NCBI RefSeq assembly: GCF_002088945.1
Contig: NZ_NCSU01000015.1
Coordinates: 62,001 to 126,000, forward strand
Origin: Henriciella pelagia
Lineage (GTDB): Bacteria > Pseudomonadota > Alphaproteobacteria > Caulobacterales > Hyphomonadaceae
Direction of reading: 5' to 3'
DNA length: 64,000 nucleotides
A model generated the notes under the pieces. That model did no database searches. It saw only the letters and a program-made list of their open reading frames with translations, and had not been told where the DNA came from. Numbering within the stretch: position 1 is the first letter of the stretch; each line of letters begins with the position of its first letter. A program made the position numbers and the translations under genes. Of this stretch, positions 2,009-50,570 are shown in pieces.

Positions 2009-2376
2009 GTATGAACCTCCCCCAAATGCTCACCACCTCACCTACAATTGCATCAATGACTACCTCTGTACACCAGTACAGTCCTCCAAAATTGCCGAGA
2101 TACACAACAAATTCTTTGGCGCACGAAATCTCGCCCTCTTCCGACCGGCAATCGAGCATGCCTGTCGCCGTAATATTTCTGACGCTCGCGTAACCGGACG
2201 CAGCCTCCTGCACCACCAAAGGTCGGTCTGCCGCTGAAAACCGCCAGACAGGCACCCCGGGGTGGCATTGCCCCCAGGGCAGTTGAACTTTTCGGAAACT
2301 CGTCGAAGGCCCACCTTGCGAAAGCATTTAACTTCACATCTGGGCGAAATACTATGTTTATCAGTCTCCATTAAGA
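2009..2376. other. Intergenic region without a supported gene
   Basis: About 370 bases of comparatively AT-rich sequence lie between the lipoprotein start and the TadG-like gene. Several overlapping minus-strand reading frames cross it, but none has a convincing start, signal or family. It must hold the divergent promoters for the genes on either side. I could not pick out clear -35/-10 pairs. Confidence 0.5.
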
Positions 2377-3669
2377 ATGCTTCTTATGGGGAATGCTTCA
2401 TTCGATATTCGCAGGCTATTGCGCGATCAGAACGGCTCGACCATGCCGATCTTCGTACTGTGCCTGGCTGCGCTGGTTGGCCTTGTAGGCTTTGCGCTGG
2501 CTTTTGCCTTCGACCTGCGCACAACCTCAAGGCTGCAGCAGGACGCAGATACCGCCGCGCTGGCCGGCGCTTCAGCCTACATCATGGAAAATTTCTCCAC
2601 GCGGGAAACCAGCCGTCTTCAATCAGCAGAACAGGCGGCGCGGATAAGCGCGGATGCAGTGGCATGGGACACAACACAAGCCGCCGCCGTCCAGGTGCAG
2701 AAAGTGGGAACTTTCCGGCAGAAGGCGACTGTTGAAGTCAATCTCAGCTCCAGGCCTGAAAACCGGTTTGCCTCCTGGGTCGGCGCCAGCACCGACCGGG
2801 TCCGCAGCCGCACCGCCAAGGCCGAAGTCACGCGCGGTCTTCCACTGTGCGTGCTGACCTTGGGCCTTGTCGTCCAAGGGGTGGAAATCGATGGCGGCGG
2901 AACGCTGAACGCGGAAGACTGCGTTGTCTGGTCGAATGCCGGAGGCCTGCTCTCCATGTCTTTTTCCGGTTCCGGTTCAGCCACCGCAGAACTGTTTTGC
3001 GCCGTCGGGCGAACCTATAAGGCGAGCAATTTCACGGCGACTCCCCGTCCTTCGGAGAACTGCGATTCACTCCCGGACCCTCTGGAAAGCTGGGAAGCCC
3101 CGAAACCCGGACTGTGCACGTCGAAATCACCCAGTCGCGTTCGGGGCCGCGATGGCGAAACAGTCACGCTGCAACCGGCGACATATTGTAATGGCCTGAC
3201 CATCTCTGCCGACAATGTCATCCTCGAACCAGGCGTCTACTTCATAAAGAACGGCGCCCTCACCATCAGCAGCGACAGTCAAGTCATCGGTGAAGGCGTC
3301 ACCATCGTCCTGACCGGATCAGGCGCGACCATGGAAATGAAAGGGCAGAGCCTCGTCGACATTTCAGGCCCCACATCAGGCCCACTGGCCGGGCTGGTGC
3401 TGGTGAGCGACCGGACCACAGACATCGGATCCGATGTGAAGCTCGTTGGCGGCGCTGGCTTTTCGATCAAGGGCCTGATTTACCTGCCTCGGCAGGATCT
3501 TGAAATCGGCGGCGGAGGAACCCTCAACACAACGGCGCCAAACCTTCAGATCATTGCCCGGAGCATGAGATATTCCGGCAATGGCACCTTGAACCTGAGC
3601 TATGACAAGAACGAAGCTGCACTTGGCAGCCGGGTCATCACGAATTCCTTCGTCCGGCTCGTGGAGTGA
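2377..3669 (+). CDS. TadG-like Flp-pilus-type protein with beta-rich C-terminal domain
   Basis: A 430-residue protein. Residues about 13-60 carry the TadE/TadG N-terminal signature: a basic stretch, 'NGSTMPIFVL', a transmembrane helix, then 'LQQDADTAALAGA', typical of the putative TadG N-terminal domain (PF13400 type). The rest contains paired cysteines and repeated Gly/Ser/Thr-rich strands with hydrophobic I/V positions, suggesting a beta-helix or beta-solenoid. TadG proteins are exported and associated with Flp pilus assembly. No other tad genes are nearby, so this is an orphan copy and its role here is unknown. The start could be 2377 or the ATG three codons later. Confidence 0.75.
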   Translation: MLLMGNASFDIRRLLRDQNGSTMPIFVLCLAALVGLVGFALAFAFDLRTTSRLQQDADTAALAGASAYIMENFSTRETSRLQSAEQAARISADAVAWDTTQAAAVQVQKVGTFRQKATVEVNLSSRPENRFASWVGASTDRVRSRTAKAEVTRGLPLCVLTLGLVVQGVEIDGGGTLNAEDCVVWSNAGGLLSMSFSGSGSATAELFCAVGRTYKASNFTATPRPSENCDSLPDPLESWEAPKPGLCTSKSPSRVRGRDGETVTLQPATYCNGLTISADNVILEPGVYFIKNGALTISSDSQVIGEGVTIVLTGSGATMEMKGQSLVDISGPTSGPLAGLVLVSDRTTDIGSDVKLVGGAGFSIKGLIYLPRQDLEIGGGGTLNTTAPNLQIIARSMRYSGNGTLNLSYDKNEAALGSRVITNSFVRLVE

Positions 3670-24408: not shown

Positions 24409-26444
24409 CCGAAGCCGGACGCATCAGTTTCGACCCGCTGCTTGGCTGGCCCGTCCTCTGGGCCCTGCTTGCCGTGGTCGCCATCTGCTTTGCCGCCTAT
24501 CTCAGATGGCGCGGCGCTGCCTGGCTCACCCGCCTTGCCGCCTTCACCGTGCTCGCCGCCGCCCTGTCGAACCCCGCCTATGTCCGCGAGGAGCGCGAGC
24601 CCCTGCCATCGGTCGCAGCCCTCATCATCGACCGCTCCGAAAGCATGAGCTTCGGCGAGCGCACCGCCATCGCAGACCGCGCCCTCGACGCCTTCCGCGA
24701 GAGCATGGACGCCGACGCCTCGCTAGAGCTGCGCCTTCTCGAATCCGACCCGAACGCTGACGGCACAGACCTTGTTGCCGCCCTCGAAGGCCTGATGGCG
24801 GACGTCCCGCGTGACCGCATTGCCGGCTCCATCCTCGTCACCGACGGCCAGGTTCACGACGTGCCGGAAGACCTCTCCCCGCTTGCCGCCCTTGGCCCCG
24901 TCCACGCCGTCATCACCGGCGACCCGGATTCAGGCGACCGCCGCATCACCCTCGTCCAGTCGCCTGACTTCGGCATTGTCGGCGAGAACGCCCCCTTCAT
25001 TGTCCGCGTTGACGACCCGGCAGCCGACACCGCCGCCGTCTCCATCTCCGTCAATGGCGGCCTGCCCCAGCGCATCACCGTCCAGACCGGCACCGACACG
25101 CCCATGCCAATCGAGATCGAGCGCCGCGGCGACAATATCGTCGTCGTCGAGACGCCCCCCGGCGAGCAGGAGCTCACCCTCGCCAACAACCGCACCGCCG
25201 CCACGCTCTCAGGCGTGCGCGACCGTCTGCGCGTCCTCCTCATCACCGGCAAGCCGAATGCCGCCGGCCGTGTCTGGCGTGACCTCCTCAAATCCGACCC
25301 CTCGGTCGATCTCGTCCACTTCACCATCCTCAGGCCCCCCTTCAAGCAGGACATCACCCCGCTGGAAGAGATGGCCCTCATCGCCTTCCCCACCGATGAA
25401 CTGTTCGAGGAAAAGCTGGACGAGTTCGACCTCATCATCTTCGACCAGTATGAGCGCCGCACCGTCATCACCATGTCCTACCTCGCTAATATGGCGCGCT
25501 ATGTTGCCGATGGCGGGGCGCTTCTGATTGCGGCGGGAGAGGATTTTGCCGGCCCCGCCTCCCTCGCCAATACGCCGCTCGCAGGCGTGCTCCCGGCGCT
25601 GCCGACCAATACGATAGAAGTCGGCAAGTTCACGCCGGAGCTTTCTGACACAGGCCGCCGCCACACCGTCACCGAAGCCCTCGATGGCCGCTCATGGGGC
25701 GGCTGGGTGCGTTACATTGGCGCCACCGCCGAAGCCGGCGACGTCCTCATGACCGCCGAGAATGGCGACCCGCTCCTCGTCGTCGACCGCGTCGGCGAAG
25801 GCCGCGTGGCACAGCTCCTCTCCGGGCAGATCTGGCTCTGGGCGCGCGGACATGATGGCGGCGGGCCCTTCGCAGAGCTGATCCGCCGCATGGTCCACTG
25901 GCTGATGAAAGAGCCTGAGCTGGAAGAGCGACAGCTCCGCCTCGAAGCCCAGGGCGACACCGTCCGCGCCACGCTGCGCACCCTGTCGGACAATGCCCCG
26001 CCGCTCACCATCGAGACGCCCGACGGCACCACCATGGAGCCCGCCTGGCAGGCGGTCGGCCCCGGCGAATTTGCCGCCGAAGCCCCGATTGACCGGCTCG
26101 GGCTTTTCAGGGCGCGCTCTGGTGGCCTCGAAGCCGTCACCCTGAACGGACCGGTAAACCCCAAGGAATACGCCGCCCTCGAAGCGACCCCTGACGTGCT
26201 CACCCCGCTCGCGGAACGCACCGGCGGCGGAATCTATGAAGTCGACAGCCCCTCAGACAGCCTGCCGGACATCCGCCGCGTCGGCCGCAGCGCCGGTGCC
26301 GAGGGCACGAACTGGCTGGGCCTGCGCGAGAGAGGCGCCTACGCCGTCCGCAGCTCCACCAGCCTGCCGCTCCTACCGGGCATACTGGCGATGGCGCTTA
26401 TTGTGGCGTTGCTGATGCTGGCCTGGAGACGTGAGGGGCGTTAG
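24405..26444 (+). CDS. VWA-like / glutamine-amidotransferase-like membrane protein of the MoxR operon
   Basis: A 679-residue protein. Two N-terminal helices are followed by 'ALIIDRSESMSFG', a DxSxS metal-site motif of von Willebrand A type, then a large domain with a class I glutamine amidotransferase-like segment ('MARYVADGGALLIAAGEDFAG') and a C-terminal helix ending 'LLMLAWRREGR'. It is the last gene of the five-gene operon. Its last 120 bp are repeated at 26689-26808. Confidence 0.85.
   Translation: MTEAGRISFDPLLGWPVLWALLAVVAICFAAYLRWRGAAWLTRLAAFTVLAAALSNPAYVREEREPLPSVAALIIDRSESMSFGERTAIADRALDAFRESMDADASLELRLLESDPNADGTDLVAALEGLMADVPRDRIAGSILVTDGQVHDVPEDLSPLAALGPVHAVITGDPDSGDRRITLVQSPDFGIVGENAPFIVRVDDPAADTAAVSISVNGGLPQRITVQTGTDTPMPIEIERRGDNIVVVETPPGEQELTLANNRTAATLSGVRDRLRVLLITGKPNAAGRVWRDLLKSDPSVDLVHFTILRPPFKQDITPLEEMALIAFPTDELFEEKLDEFDLIIFDQYERRTVITMSYLANMARYVADGGALLIAAGEDFAGPASLANTPLAGVLPALPTNTIEVGKFTPELSDTGRRHTVTEALDGRSWGGWVRYIGATAEAGDVLMTAENGDPLLVVDRVGEGRVAQLLSGQIWLWARGHDGGGPFAELIRRMVHWLMKEPELEERQLRLEAQGDTVRATLRTLSDNAPPLTIETPDGTTMEPAWQAVGPGEFAAEAPIDRLGLFRARSGGLEAVTLNGPVNPKEYAALEATPDVLTPLAERTGGGIYEVDSPSDSLPDIRRVGRSAGAEGTNWLGLRERGAYAVRSSTSLPLLPGILAMALIVALLMLAWRREGR
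26325..26444 (+). repeat. Direct repeat copy 1 (3' end of the VWA-like gene)
   Basis: This 120-bp segment encodes the last 39 residues and stop of the VWA-like protein. It is repeated 364 bases downstream with 11 base differences. Copy 1 is continuous with the intact gene. Confidence 0.95.
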
Positions 26445-26688
26445 GGGGCGGGGCCAGGACCGCTTAAATCCAGAAAGCGGACAGTCCGCTGCAGCTGCAC
26501 CTGGGGCAAATATTTGCCAAGAGTGTAGGAACGACTGAGCTTCCGCAATGTCGGCAACCATCATTCGAACAATCGTAGGGCGGTGTTGAGGCCGAAGGCC
26601 GATACCCGCCGTGACAACGACTGAACCAGCCGGCAGGTTGGGATAGCGGGTATCACTGCGTTCAACCCGCCCTACGTTGCTCGGTCTT
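26445..26688. other. Junction segment between duplicated gene ends
   Basis: 244 non-coding bases lie between the stop of the VWA-like gene and the second copy of its 3' end. The right part is occupied by a palindromic repeat (26574-26676). The rest has no gene. Short self-complementary stretches (CTGCAGCTGCA, CAAATATTTG) are visible. Confidence 0.7.
26574..26676. repeat. MITE- or REP-like palindromic element
   Basis: The left end CGTAGGGCGG...GATACCCGCC (26574-26610) and the right end GCGGGTATC...CCGCCCTACG (26646-26676) are inverted repeats around a 35-base centre. The outer 10 bases CGTAGGGCGG/CCGCCCTACG and the inner GATACCCGC/GCGGGTATC match perfectly. It has no coding capacity. It ends 12 bases before the duplicated gene tail. 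Confidence 0.8.
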
Positions 26689-26808
26689 CGCGAAAGAGGC
26701 GCCTACGCCGTCCGCAGCTCCACCAGCCTGCCGCTCCTACCGGGCATATTGGCGATGGCGCTGATCGTCTTGTTGCTGATGCTGGCCTGGCGGCGTGAGG
26801 GGCGGTAA
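26689..26808 (+). pseudogene. Diverged second copy of the 3' end of the VWA-like gene
   Basis: The 120 bases match 26325-26444 at 109 positions and keep the reading frame to a stop (TAA instead of TAG). Eight codons differ synonymously (counting the stop) and one changes Ala to Leu. The copy therefore appears to come from a functional orthologue rather than from a recent local duplication. It has no upstream part and cannot make a protein. Confidence 0.85.
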
Positions 26809-26834
26809 AGCACACAACACGCTAGCGTATTGAA

Positions 26835-27692
26835 CTAGGAGCGCTTGATCGCGGTCCAGCCTGAGGTTCTGTTCAAACCCGATCCAGATGTTACGGAAGT
26901 CCGCCTTACAGTGTCAGCACCTTCGTATTTTACGTCAAAATCTACCCTTGCCACCTCGTTCTGAAAGGCACCGAACGTCTTTCGAAAGGCTTCTAGGATC
27001 TCCACATTTTCAACAGACTGCGCTTTCGCATTCGGGTTGTTTCGAGGAGACGGGATCGTTTCGGGAAATGTATAAATGCATGGTGGAGGCAATGAGAATG
27101 GACCCACCATATTCTTTCGATTCGGGTCAGCAATTAGCTTTGGACAAGGTCTGCCGACGGTGCCGCAAACCATATCCCAGATGATCAATCCGTCGACACG
27201 CTGCTCCCGCGAGATAATCTCTGCACTCAATCTCGTATGAACGCCCGACCAAGCGTTATGCTCAGGATCAGCTCCCGGATTGGTGCAAACGCTCCATACA
27301 ATAAATTCTTGTGCATGTGGAGGCCGCTCGAAAATGTTGGTGTTATTTCCATCCAAACATCCTTTCAGCTCAATCGCGGCAACGCGCTCAGAGCAAAGCG
27401 TCACTACGTAATCATGCCGATTAGCTTCTCCCGCAGATTCCCAACCTTTTATCGTTCCTGCGTCCTGCATGTGGTTCAGCACATGCTGCACGAACTCACG
27501 TTTTGGCTGCATCGTCGCCGAGAATTGGCCTCTCACGCGCTCTATAGCGCCCCTGAATAATCCTGACCGATAAAACTCATCTTCAGAAAGTCCGTGAGAA
27601 CCCAATGTGTGGGCTTGTGTCTTTAGCACTTCAGCAAACTCTTCGATTTGCTCTTTTAGTGATGCATTTCTCTGGCAAGGAATAATTTTCAT
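26835..27692 (-). CDS. Putative type II restriction endonuclease
   Basis: A 285-residue protein with no strong family that I recognise. It contains 'HDYVVTLCSERVAAIELKG', which fits a PD-(D/E)xK nuclease core (D, then E-x-K on the following strand). It overlaps the methyltransferase stop by 4 bases (ATGA) and shares its low GC content. The position directly behind a lone C5-methyltransferase makes it the likely cognate endonuclease. Recognition sequence unknown. The fold assignment is inference. Confidence 0.72.
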   Translation of the reverse strand: MKIIPCQRNASLKEQIEEFAEVLKTQAHTLGSHGLSEDEFYRSGLFRGAIERVRGQFSATMQPKREFVQHVLNHMQDAGTIKGWESAGEANRHDYVVTLCSERVAAIELKGCLDGNNTNIFERPPHAQEFIVWSVCTNPGADPEHNAWSGVHTRLSAEIISREQRVDGLIIWDMVCGTVGRPCPKLIADPNRKNMVGPFSLPPPCIYTFPETIPSPRNNPNAKAQSVENVEILEAFRKTFGAFQNEVARVDFDVKYEGADTVRRTSVTSGSGLNRTSGWTAIKRS

Positions 27693-28837
27693 GCAGCTTT
27701 TTTGTCTGCAGAAAGATAGGGTTGTAAAGTATCCTCAAAAATCGACTTCACCAAGAAATTAACCACTGGGACTACTACGCCGTCACCAGTTAGATGGTAA
27801 GATTCATTGTACTTTTCTGGAAGAATGTAACTGTCCGGCAGTCCCATTAGCCGGGCAGTTTCACGAGCCGAAATCAGTCGAATACCTATTTCGTCGCCGT
27901 CCACCACTATAACCAATTGGCGAGATGATCCGCCGGCCGGCGTCCTGAGACAACCTGCAACCCCATCAAAGCGGACCTCTGCTCGTTGTACTTTTCGACC
28001 GAATTCGTCTCGACGTGTACGTTTGTAGACCGTGCCAACGCACCGCTTTCCACTTTCCTGGCAGGCACGCACCTTCGCAATGTTTCTCTCGGACATCATC
28101 GACAGCAACTTGTCCGTTTGTGTTTGATCAAACCATTCTGAGTTTTGAAGCGAACCTTCAATAATGGAATTCAAGTCAGCCTTCATTTCCGGCGGGTTTG
28201 GAAGATTCCACCAAACCCATTTGTTCTTGGATTCCGCTGGTAGCCTTTCGACGGCACGCTGTAGCGCCTTTGTGTGAAACCGAGGGTCAGGTTCCGAGCG
28301 TATTAAATTCTGCGGAACATCGACGTTGTGCCGCACTCCAATAACGAAGAGTCTTGGACGCGACTGAGGCACAAACAATGAAGCGTCAATTACGACGGCT
28401 CCCACTTGATACCCAATTGACCGGTACGCATCACAAATGGCGGCAAAATCTTTGCCTTCATGGCTCGTCAGCGTACCAGCGACGTTCTCTAGCGCGATGA
28501 TTTCAGGCGCACGGCCCTCATCGGTCAAATCGCACATCAATTTCCAGAATGGCCAGAACGTGCCGGAGCGATCACCTTTCAAACCCGCTCCGCTTCCGGC
28601 CAAAGATAAGTCCTGGCAAGGGAAGGATGCCCAAGCAACGTTTGCGGTTTCTGAAAATTGTGATGTTGATACATCACGTATATCACCGTGCACCAAGGTG
28701 CCATCGTTTGGGTAATTGCGGAGATAGGTCTCACACTTCTTGATGTCAAAATCGTTTGCAAAAACACAGTTCCATTTCGAACCGAAACCGGCTCTCGCCA
28801 TTCCCCCGCCGCAAAAGAATTCGTAGAAATTTAGCAT
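27689..28837 (-). CDS. DNA (cytosine-5) methyltransferase
   Basis: A 382-residue C5 MTase. Motif I 'EFFCGGGMARAGF', motif IV 'SFPCQDLSLAG' with the catalytic Cys, motif VI 'ALENV', motif VIII 'QSRPRLFVIGV', and motif IX/X 'RLISARETARLMGLPDSY' are in order. The target-recognition region lies between motifs VIII and IX. The ATG at 28837 has GGGAG 5 bases upstream; an in-frame TTG at 28849 is less likely. The gene and its partner are clearly lower in GC than the neighbours, a sign of transfer. Confidence 0.93.
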   Translation of the reverse strand: MLNFYEFFCGGGMARAGFGSKWNCVFANDFDIKKCETYLRNYPNDGTLVHGDIRDVSTSQFSETANVAWASFPCQDLSLAGSGAGLKGDRSGTFWPFWKLMCDLTDEGRAPEIIALENVAGTLTSHEGKDFAAICDAYRSIGYQVGAVVIDASLFVPQSRPRLFVIGVRHNVDVPQNLIRSEPDPRFHTKALQRAVERLPAESKNKWVWWNLPNPPEMKADLNSIIEGSLQNSEWFDQTQTDKLLSMMSERNIAKVRACQESGKRCVGTVYKRTRRDEFGRKVQRAEVRFDGVAGCLRTPAGGSSRQLVIVVDGDEIGIRLISARETARLMGLPDSYILPEKYNESYHLTGDGVVVPVVNFLVKSIFEDTLQPYLSADKKAA

Positions 28838-28887
28838 TTTTGCTCCCAACCGCGCCGATTGAATCTGGATTCACTGTTGAGGTCAAA

Positions 28888-28915
28888 ACTATAAATCAGG
28901 ACAAGAACATTTCAA
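28888..28915 (-). promoter_or_regulatory. Sigma70-like promoter of the R-M operon
   Basis: On the minus strand TTGAAA (28915-28910) and TATAGT (28893-28888) are 16 bases apart. Transcription would start near 28881, giving a leader of about 45 bases before the methyltransferase ATG. Both hexamers are close to the consensus. Confidence 0.65.
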
Positions 28916-28919
28916 GAAC
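28905..28919 (-). promoter_or_regulatory. LexA (SOS) box overlapping the -35 of the R-M promoter
   Basis: On the minus strand the sequence is GTTC-TTGAAAT-GTTC, a perfect match to the alphaproteobacterial LexA consensus GTTC-N7-GTTC. The central seven bases contain the TTGAAA -35 hexamer, so a bound repressor would block RNA polymerase. The match is seen; LexA binding is inferred. Confidence 0.55.
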
Positions 28920-29012
28920 TATTTCTCCCTCTGCGTGTTTTGGTATTTTTTACAACCAGCAAGAAAATTAATTCCATCCCCCTCCCTCAGCTCCCGGTTA
29001 TAACCCTGCCGC

Positions 29013-29429
29013 ATGGAGCTGACCCTCTCGATGATATGGAGCTGTCTGATGCGGGTGCCGGTGCGGCACTGGCGGGTGCTGTTCCATAATCTCGGCCGCC
29101 TGCATGTCACCTTCGAGACAGCGCGGGCCGAGGGTCGCAGCTGGATCACCTGGCATCTGCGCGATGATGGCGTCATCTGGATCTCGGCCTGGGAAGAGAC
29201 CGAGGCCGAAAAGCGCGCGAAATGCGCCCTGCCGGGCGGGTTTGACCGCACGCCCTGGACGCGCATGGAGCATGCCTTCGAGCCCAGCCTCCTCGCCCAT
29301 CTTGGCGCGCGTCTGGCAAGCGCCCACGTCCACGCCGCCCTTACACTCACCGCCGCCACCAGCCTCGCCCTCAAGGGCGGCGCCAGCGGCCTTGCCTGTC
29401 TCCCCCTGCTCGCCCTGCCGCCGCCCTGA
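29013..29429 (+). CDS. Hypothetical protein
   Basis: A 138-residue reading frame with strong third-position GC and a plausible protein pattern: 'HWRVLFHNLGRLHVTFE', 'WITWHLRDDGVIWISAWEE', then an Ala/Leu-rich C terminus. The first Met or the one at residue 13 could start it. It has no recognised family. It stands alone between the R-M cassette and a repeat-rich spacer. It may be a real short gene, but I cannot exclude a chance frame. Confidence 0.45.
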   Translation: MELTLSMIWSCLMRVPVRHWRVLFHNLGRLHVTFETARAEGRSWITWHLRDDGVIWISAWEETEAEKRAKCALPGGFDRTPWTRMEHAFEPSLLAHLGARLASAHVHAALTLTAATSLALKGGASGLACLPLLALPPP

Positions 29430-50555: not shown

Positions 50556-50570
50556 GAACAAATAGAGAAC
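50556..50570 (-). promoter_or_regulatory. LexA (SOS) box of recN
   Basis: On the minus strand the sequence is GTTC-TCTATTT-GTTC, a perfect match to GTTC-N7-GTTC, immediately upstream of recN. RecN is a conserved member of LexA regulons, so the assignment is well supported. Confidence 0.8.

Follow-up and report, generated by a model that had tools for sequence, protein, structure and literature searches.

How is an inserted type II restriction-modification (R-M) system regulated when its cassette carries no controller gene? Some type II R-M systems, e.g. those of the PvuII/Esp1396I type, possess a dedicated C (controller) protein. In the window analyzed here, which is the whole 64-kb stretch of DNA given above, a methyltransferase gene (M) and an endonuclease gene (R) lie downstream of a perfect GTTC-N7-GTTC repeat. 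The initial annotation, made from the letters of the sequence, proposed that this repeat is a LexA operator and that the R-M system is inducible by DNA damage.

The R-M cassette and its insertion site

The M gene encodes a C5-cytosine DNA methyltransferase with a full catalytic domain (PF00145, E 2.2e-49 over residues 7-371; TIGR00675 above the cut-off) that matches the HhaI and HaeIII methylases in PDB (Table 1). Its start was placed at the ATG at 28837, with an alternative TTG at 28849. The R protein is matched by PDLC03501 (REase_II), the PADLOC profile for type II restriction enzymes (285/285, E 6.5e-137), and has no match among the Pfam or NCBIfam profiles. Among 24 aligned R sequences, D94 never varies, 21 have E or D at position 108, and 22 have K at position 110. 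The residues D94...E108-x-K110 would thus have the layout of a PD-(D/E)XK site that is largely conserved; the predicted fold is compatible with such a site, without being decisive. M and the linked R probably constitute a type II R-M system with predicted cleavage activity. A Druantia assignment was rejected: the best PADLOC profile of M is DruM2 (E 3.5e-155), but the only long genes of the insert are M and R.

The cassette is inserted between flanks that are common to other species of the genus. Alignment with G025, the closest species with this neighbourhood (upstream protein 94% identical), ends at 26445 and resumes at 28973; in place of the cassette G025 has about 1.8 kb of unrelated DNA, and the right edge is the same within 4 bases in G012 and G018. 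The box lies inside these limits, 53 bp from the right edge, and therefore came in with the cassette. R was found in two of the 29 genomes of the genus (the source genome and G009) and in eight of the 398 genomes of the order, the source genome included.

At the same place G025, G012 and G018 (L193, L194, L199) hold about 1.8-2.4 kb unrelated to the cassette (open reading frames were examined in G025 only), and the interval that separates the 24405-26444 gene from the open reading frame at 29013 looks like a hot spot for cargo genes. The 3' end of the upstream gene is duplicated within the insert (Table 1) and is doubled in G019 as well (L197, 737-886); this duplication may be a mark of the mode of cargo integration.

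The system had been described as having no visible C protein, which fits the leader: the 135 bp that separate the M start from the cassette edge leave no room for such a gene, being too short for the 67-codon regulator annotated ahead of M in two relatives. No controller gene was found elsewhere in the cassette, where open reading frames of at least 60 codons other than M and R are antisense, overlap M or R, or run into a flank (inspection by eye). Control by a C protein encoded in the cassette was therefore rejected for this copy.

Table 1. Features of the R-M locus and of the second SOS-type box in the window
Feature	Position	Strand	Basis
C5-cytosine DNA methyltransferase (M), 382 aa from ATG	27689..28837	-	PF00145, TIGR00675; HhaI/HaeIII methylases in PDB
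Predicted type II restriction endonuclease (R) of 285 aa, overlapping M by 4 bases	26835..27692	-	PADLOC REase_II
Inserted R-M cassette between flanks common to other species of the genus	26446..28972		Comparison with G025, G012, G018
129-bp, 90% copy of the upstream gene's 3' end (26315-26443), in the insert beyond the R end	26679..26807	+	Sequence comparison
LexA box GTTCTTGAAATGTTC, alphaproteobacterial SOS operator form	28905..28919	-	Motif scan, spacer score, recurrence in relatives
-35 hexamer TTGAAA, within the LexA box	28910..28915	-	Promoter consensus scan
-10 hexamer TATAGT, 16-base spacer from the -35	28888..28893	-	Promoter consensus scan
Second SOS-type box of the window, reference box, 18 bp ahead of recN	50556..50570	-	Motif scan

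LexA box and promoter upstream of the M-R operon

Read on the minus strand from 28919 to 28905, GTTCTTGAAATGTTC is a perfect GTTC-N7-GTTC direct repeat with TTGAAA inside it, which confirms the earlier placement of a perfect LexA box on the -35 of the R-M promoter. The same motif is given for alphaproteobacterial LexA in the available text of PMC3323433 and PMC12907096. The box overlaps the promoter of the M-R operon, which is defined by consensus only. Of the description of this promoter as a good sigma70-like one, the sequence TTGAAA-N16-TATAGT stands, with 10 of 12 consensus matches and the top position among three promoter-like sites in 26446-29020; the call by itself is weak, because shuffling expects 2.0 such sites.

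The prediction that chance would yield a couple of motifs in 64 kb was right. The window contains three perfect motifs against 1.64 expected, at least three being reached in 25 of 100 shuffles, and the second SOS-type one precedes recN. Such a count is what would be seen if the motif ahead of M were a chance match and the R-M genes were expressed constitutively, so that the weight falls on the properties of the individual box and on its relatives.

SOS system of the host and genome-wide distribution of the motif

The genome possesses one match to the LexA DNA-binding domain and one RecA match above the cut-off. GTTC-N7-GTTC is located before or at the start of lexA, dinB, ssb, uvrA, radC, recN, mmcB, the YifB/ComM gene (comM) and rmuC, as well as of SRAP and two radical-SAM genes, one of them with two boxes. 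The box nearest to recA, GTTTTTGTTTTGTTC, has the form GTTT-N7-GTTC (one mismatch) and lies 133 bp ahead of the match start.

The genome-wide scan proposed in the initial annotation yielded 89 GTTC-N7-GTTC matches versus 75 for the reversed control, a ratio that again favors chance: the matches are mostly chance ones, and the motif alone proves little. The R-M box stands out because it is intergenic, has an AT-rich spacer resembling many SOS boxes of the genome, and recurs in relatives. Scored with a spacer matrix built from 12 SOS-gene boxes of the genome, the R-M box excluded, it obtains 5.27 and ranks 11th of the 89, while the 12 reference boxes range from -6.0 to 9.9 in leave-one-out scoring; the matrix is rough, with the lexA (2.34) and SRAP (-0.93) boxes scoring below the R-M box. 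The chance of a spacer this good is 0.004 for an assumed GC-rich composition, 0.016 for an equal one and 0.047 for AT-rich DNA. By these measures, the R-M box resembles the SOS boxes of the host itself.

The box of rank 10 of 89, GTTCATGTTTTGTTC (L075, G000:C15:6552-10566, 2001-2015), lies 254 bp ahead of a reverse transcriptase gene (2269-3465) for which RT_UG17 (DRT, defence type) is the second-best PADLOC match, and a relative of the window ORF 29013-29429 (44% over 78 aa) is located beside it. This reverse transcriptase is a possible second SOS-linked defence gene.

Recurrence of the box upstream of homologous cassettes

Cassettes with relatives of R were gathered from plasmids (18 records), phages (4), one genome per species (30 loci), viral contigs (3) and whole genomes; M was located by tblastn and the 400 bp ahead of it were read for the box. 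The resulting set contains 32 alphaproteobacterial loci, the window included, with hosts not identified for a viral contig (L137) and a phage record (L157). Rows were dropped where the M start is off the contig (L112, L124, L129, L139), where they share the contig of L135 (L107), appear to duplicate L114 (L115), or represent the place of L136 (L133) or the phage of H20 (H21), and where a distant R-like gene has another setting (L160, L161). Near copies kept among the 32 are L137, whose upstream equals that of L104, and L162 and L153, which are kin of L146; imperfect rows kept are L130 and L131, in which R matches in pieces in different frames, and L126, L148 and L154, with R in two pieces. L130 has about 1 kb between M and R, and neither L130 nor L131 has a perfect box. 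The alphaproteobacterial loci are mutually related, and box counts among them are not independent events.

A perfect GTTC-N7-GTTC was found within 400 bp before M in 16 of these 32 loci, compared with a mean of 0.51 and a maximum of 2 in 100 rounds of dinucleotide shuffling. The spacing is specific: the nine other spacers between 3 and 12 give 0-2 loci, and with spacer 7 retained, repeats of eight other 4-mers are found in 0-3 loci (the reversed core, 2). When similar alphaproteobacterial upstreams are grouped, the perfect box is present in 13 of 27 clusters, and a box with one mismatch within 300 bp in 24 of 27, versus 4 to 14 at other spacers. Near-ideal boxes, GTTCTATATATGTTC, occur in Sphingomonas DS-9 and Methylocystis plasmids. 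The other 16 loci lack a perfect box within the 400 bp before M, as a chance origin would allow, and in three of the 32 (L108, L131, L147) even a one-mismatch box is absent over these 400 bp. Several relatives without a perfect box carry GTTT-N7-GTTC, the same form as the recA box. The box shared by L104 and L137 is located at -33 with a spacer unlike those of SOS boxes, and could be a chance match.

A held-out set of six new cassettes came from an order-wide search, after the box rule was already in use. Four of the six have a perfect box and one has a box with one mismatch, while L208 has no box before M. The L207 box is a 15-mer identical to GTTCTTGAAATGTTC, and that of L206 is GTTCTTGAATTGTTC; a TTGAA(A/T) hexamer thus keeps the same register, whereas inspection by eye shows different surrounding sequence. 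With an expectation of 0.016 per locus, four of six has a probability of about 1e-6, assuming independence.

Among non-alphaproteobacterial cassettes, one of 17 has a perfect box (shuffles, 0.25), the lone positive being L138, a viral contig of unidentified host counted as non-alphaproteobacterial; no LexA box of the γ-type was found in the non-alphaproteobacterial cassettes. The difference between alphaproteobacterial cassettes (20 of 38, held-out ones included) and the others has a one-sided Fisher P of 0.0007 with kinship ignored. Methyltransferase homologs from the order that are R-less, i.e. with no R match within roughly 4 kb, have a perfect box in one of 19 cases, these 19 being the best-scoring with loci among 86 matching genomes of 150. 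The positive case is the best-scoring one, L083 (G115), with GTTCGCCAAATGTTC at -120 of M; L083 and L138 show something of the background rate. In the 400 bp downstream of R, a perfect box occurs in 2 of 32 loci, both with the same sequence (one cluster). Upstreams of type I hsdM in 30 alphaproteobacterial genomes, of 39 matching genomes those with loci, contain no perfect box and four boxes with one mismatch; this control is coarse, as upstreams were measured from the HMM match start and not from a called start codon, hsdM may be internal to an operon, and the left flank was inferred from length for some loci ending at contig ends. One-mismatch boxes are common by chance, as these four of 30 and the 4 to 14 of 27 clusters at other spacers illustrate.

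Conservation upstream of homologous cassettes had been named in advance as a test of the proposal, and the motif recurs: the putative LexA box is found upstream of homologous alphaproteobacterial cassettes in 16 of 32 and 4 of 6 loci versus 1 of 17 elsewhere. A chance match with constitutive R-M expression is hard to reconcile with this recurrence at 0.016 expected per locus, with the position on the -35 and with the AT-rich, SOS-like spacer, and we regard it as extremely unlikely.

Promoter architectures and methyltransferase phylogeny

Relatives of the cassette fall into two classes, promoter positions in them being uncertain. In class 1, a small open reading frame (about 60-100 codons as the longest ORF) lies between the promoter and M, and the alphaproteobacterial members have the box at -243 to -265, upstream of this frame. 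A -35-like hexamer follows directly after the box or 4 bases later in some class 1 loci (e.g. L135, L144, L148, L157). Class 2, which includes the window, is without the small gene and has the box within about 82 bp of M.

The class 1 arrangement raises the question whether GTTC-N7-GTTC is instead the operator of a ribbon-helix-helix-like regulator of the cassette itself, the gene of which is seen in relatives. The small frame is annotated as CopG in two γ-proteobacterial plasmids (L141, L142), where it matches Pfam RHH_1. However, these two plasmids are boxless, and the window copy has the box and a leader too short for such a gene. Three leader frames scanned from class 1 alphaproteobacteria have no Pfam match at E 1, though their position is the same, and alphaproteobacterial promoters of this class contain a separate tandem palindrome that would suit an RHH operator (by eye). 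Control by such a regulator through the GTTC repeat is accordingly very unlikely, and the box is better read as a putative LexA operator. The TGGCGCCA-like palindromes, in tandem about 11 bp apart, lie downstream of the LexA box (by eye); they are seen upstream of M in L105, L111, L120-L122, L130, L135, L144-L146, L148, L153, L154, L157, L210 and L211 and may serve the small leader gene as operator.

Box-bearing alphaproteobacterial loci occupy several places in the M tree; for instance, L105 is next to the boxless Desulfosarcina plasmid L140 (96/84). A second M tree of 48 rows, from which L128 was left out (long branch) and L135 is absent (M split over a contig end), has 11 changes of the 'perfect box' label, seven of them forced by well-supported branches; these changes mix gains, losses and one-mismatch forms, and the tree gives no count of gains.

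Additional genes accompany some relatives. Vsr-type or GIY-YIG nuclease genes are annotated with L140, L143, L146, L148, L153-L156 and L162; the window insert contains no long gene besides M and R. In L160 and L161, on Mesorhizobium and Azospirillum plasmids, distant R relatives (28-34%) precede a ParB-like or hypothetical gene and a DEAD/DEAH helicase; here an R-like protein serves a different system.

Proposed regulation by LexA

It is highly likely that LexA represses the M-R operon and that the SOS response induces it, both binding and induction being predicted from the box, its context and its relatives. In the undamaged cell, LexA on GTTC-N7-GTTC would cover the -35 and keep transcription of M and R low. 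Upon damage, RecA filaments would promote self-cleavage of LexA, and both genes would be induced, with M rising first and R following through translational coupling. The LexA of the host would thereby replace a dedicated controller protein of the cassette.

A lesser role can be imagined, in which LexA binds without being the main control, by fine-tuning or activating the operon, or in which R is expressed mainly from a promoter inside M. R-M systems require steady methylation, and LexA is able to activate in Rhodobacter; yet the box, lying over the -35, is placed for repression, the two genes share 4 bases, and a consensus scan of the coding strand found no promoter-like site inside M. We consider this lesser role improbable compared with repression.

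Unbalanced R-M systems cause SOS, as described in the available part of PMC3874152, and because R-M imbalance induces SOS, repression by LexA might provide either negative feedback via M or restriction induced by damage or invasion. In the former case, an under-methylated chromosome cut by R would raise SOS and thus M. Alternatively or additionally, the wiring would strengthen restriction when SOS is triggered by incoming phage or by conjugating DNA. The purpose is the least certain part of the proposal, and each of these benefits, taken singly, has rather less than an even chance.

At the level of the family, it can be speculated, at rather less than even probability, that a mobile type II R-M family is wired to SOS in alphaproteobacteria with LexA as its damage-sensing controller: self-cutting by R would induce SOS and raise M (and R), restoring methylation or killing unrecoverable cells. 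Promoters of differing layout would use the operator, which is found at about -262 where a small regulator-like gene follows, on the -35 itself, or close to the start codon. It also occurs in loci that have boxless non-alphaproteobacterial loci as their nearest M relatives, which suggests repeated gain.

Comparison with known systems and significance

Systems with C proteins are alike in the transcriptional control of linked M and R genes; here no C gene precedes M, the proposed regulator is the LexA of the host, and the signal would be DNA damage. According to the available part of PMC3874152, the LexA-repressed SymE of E. coli likewise has a LexA site on its promoter and is potentially harmful, but it is a type I toxin-antitoxin toxin and not a restriction enzyme. 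The nearest paper is PMC12907096, on an orphan methyltransferase with SOS links. In its available text, ScmA and VsrA of Caulobacter crescentus share with our locus cytosine methylation, a nuclease, SOS, the exact GTTC-N7-GTTC and an alphaproteobacterial host; however, ScmA has no cognate restriction enzyme, and the LexA site is inside vsrA, which is unlinked to scmA. The alphaproteobacterial SOS regulon of PMC3323433 has the operator GTTC-N7-GTTC in common with the R-M box, and the word 'restriction' has no occurrence in the available text of this comparative paper.

No report of a type II R-M system under LexA appeared in full-text searches of open PMC papers, as judged by titles and the starts of abstracts. 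The accessible portion of a 2025 review of R-M systems (PMC12707154) does not mention LexA, and that of PMC3925955 has nothing on LexA-controlled type II R-M.

If true, a LexA operator on an R-M promoter would close the loop from R-M imbalance to SOS and would be a new answer to the problem of balancing M and R without a controller gene, above all on entry into a new cell. The prediction extends beyond this genome to the plasmid-borne relatives. DNA-damaging drugs, prophage induction and conjugation would then alter the restriction barrier, and hence the openness of these bacteria to foreign DNA.
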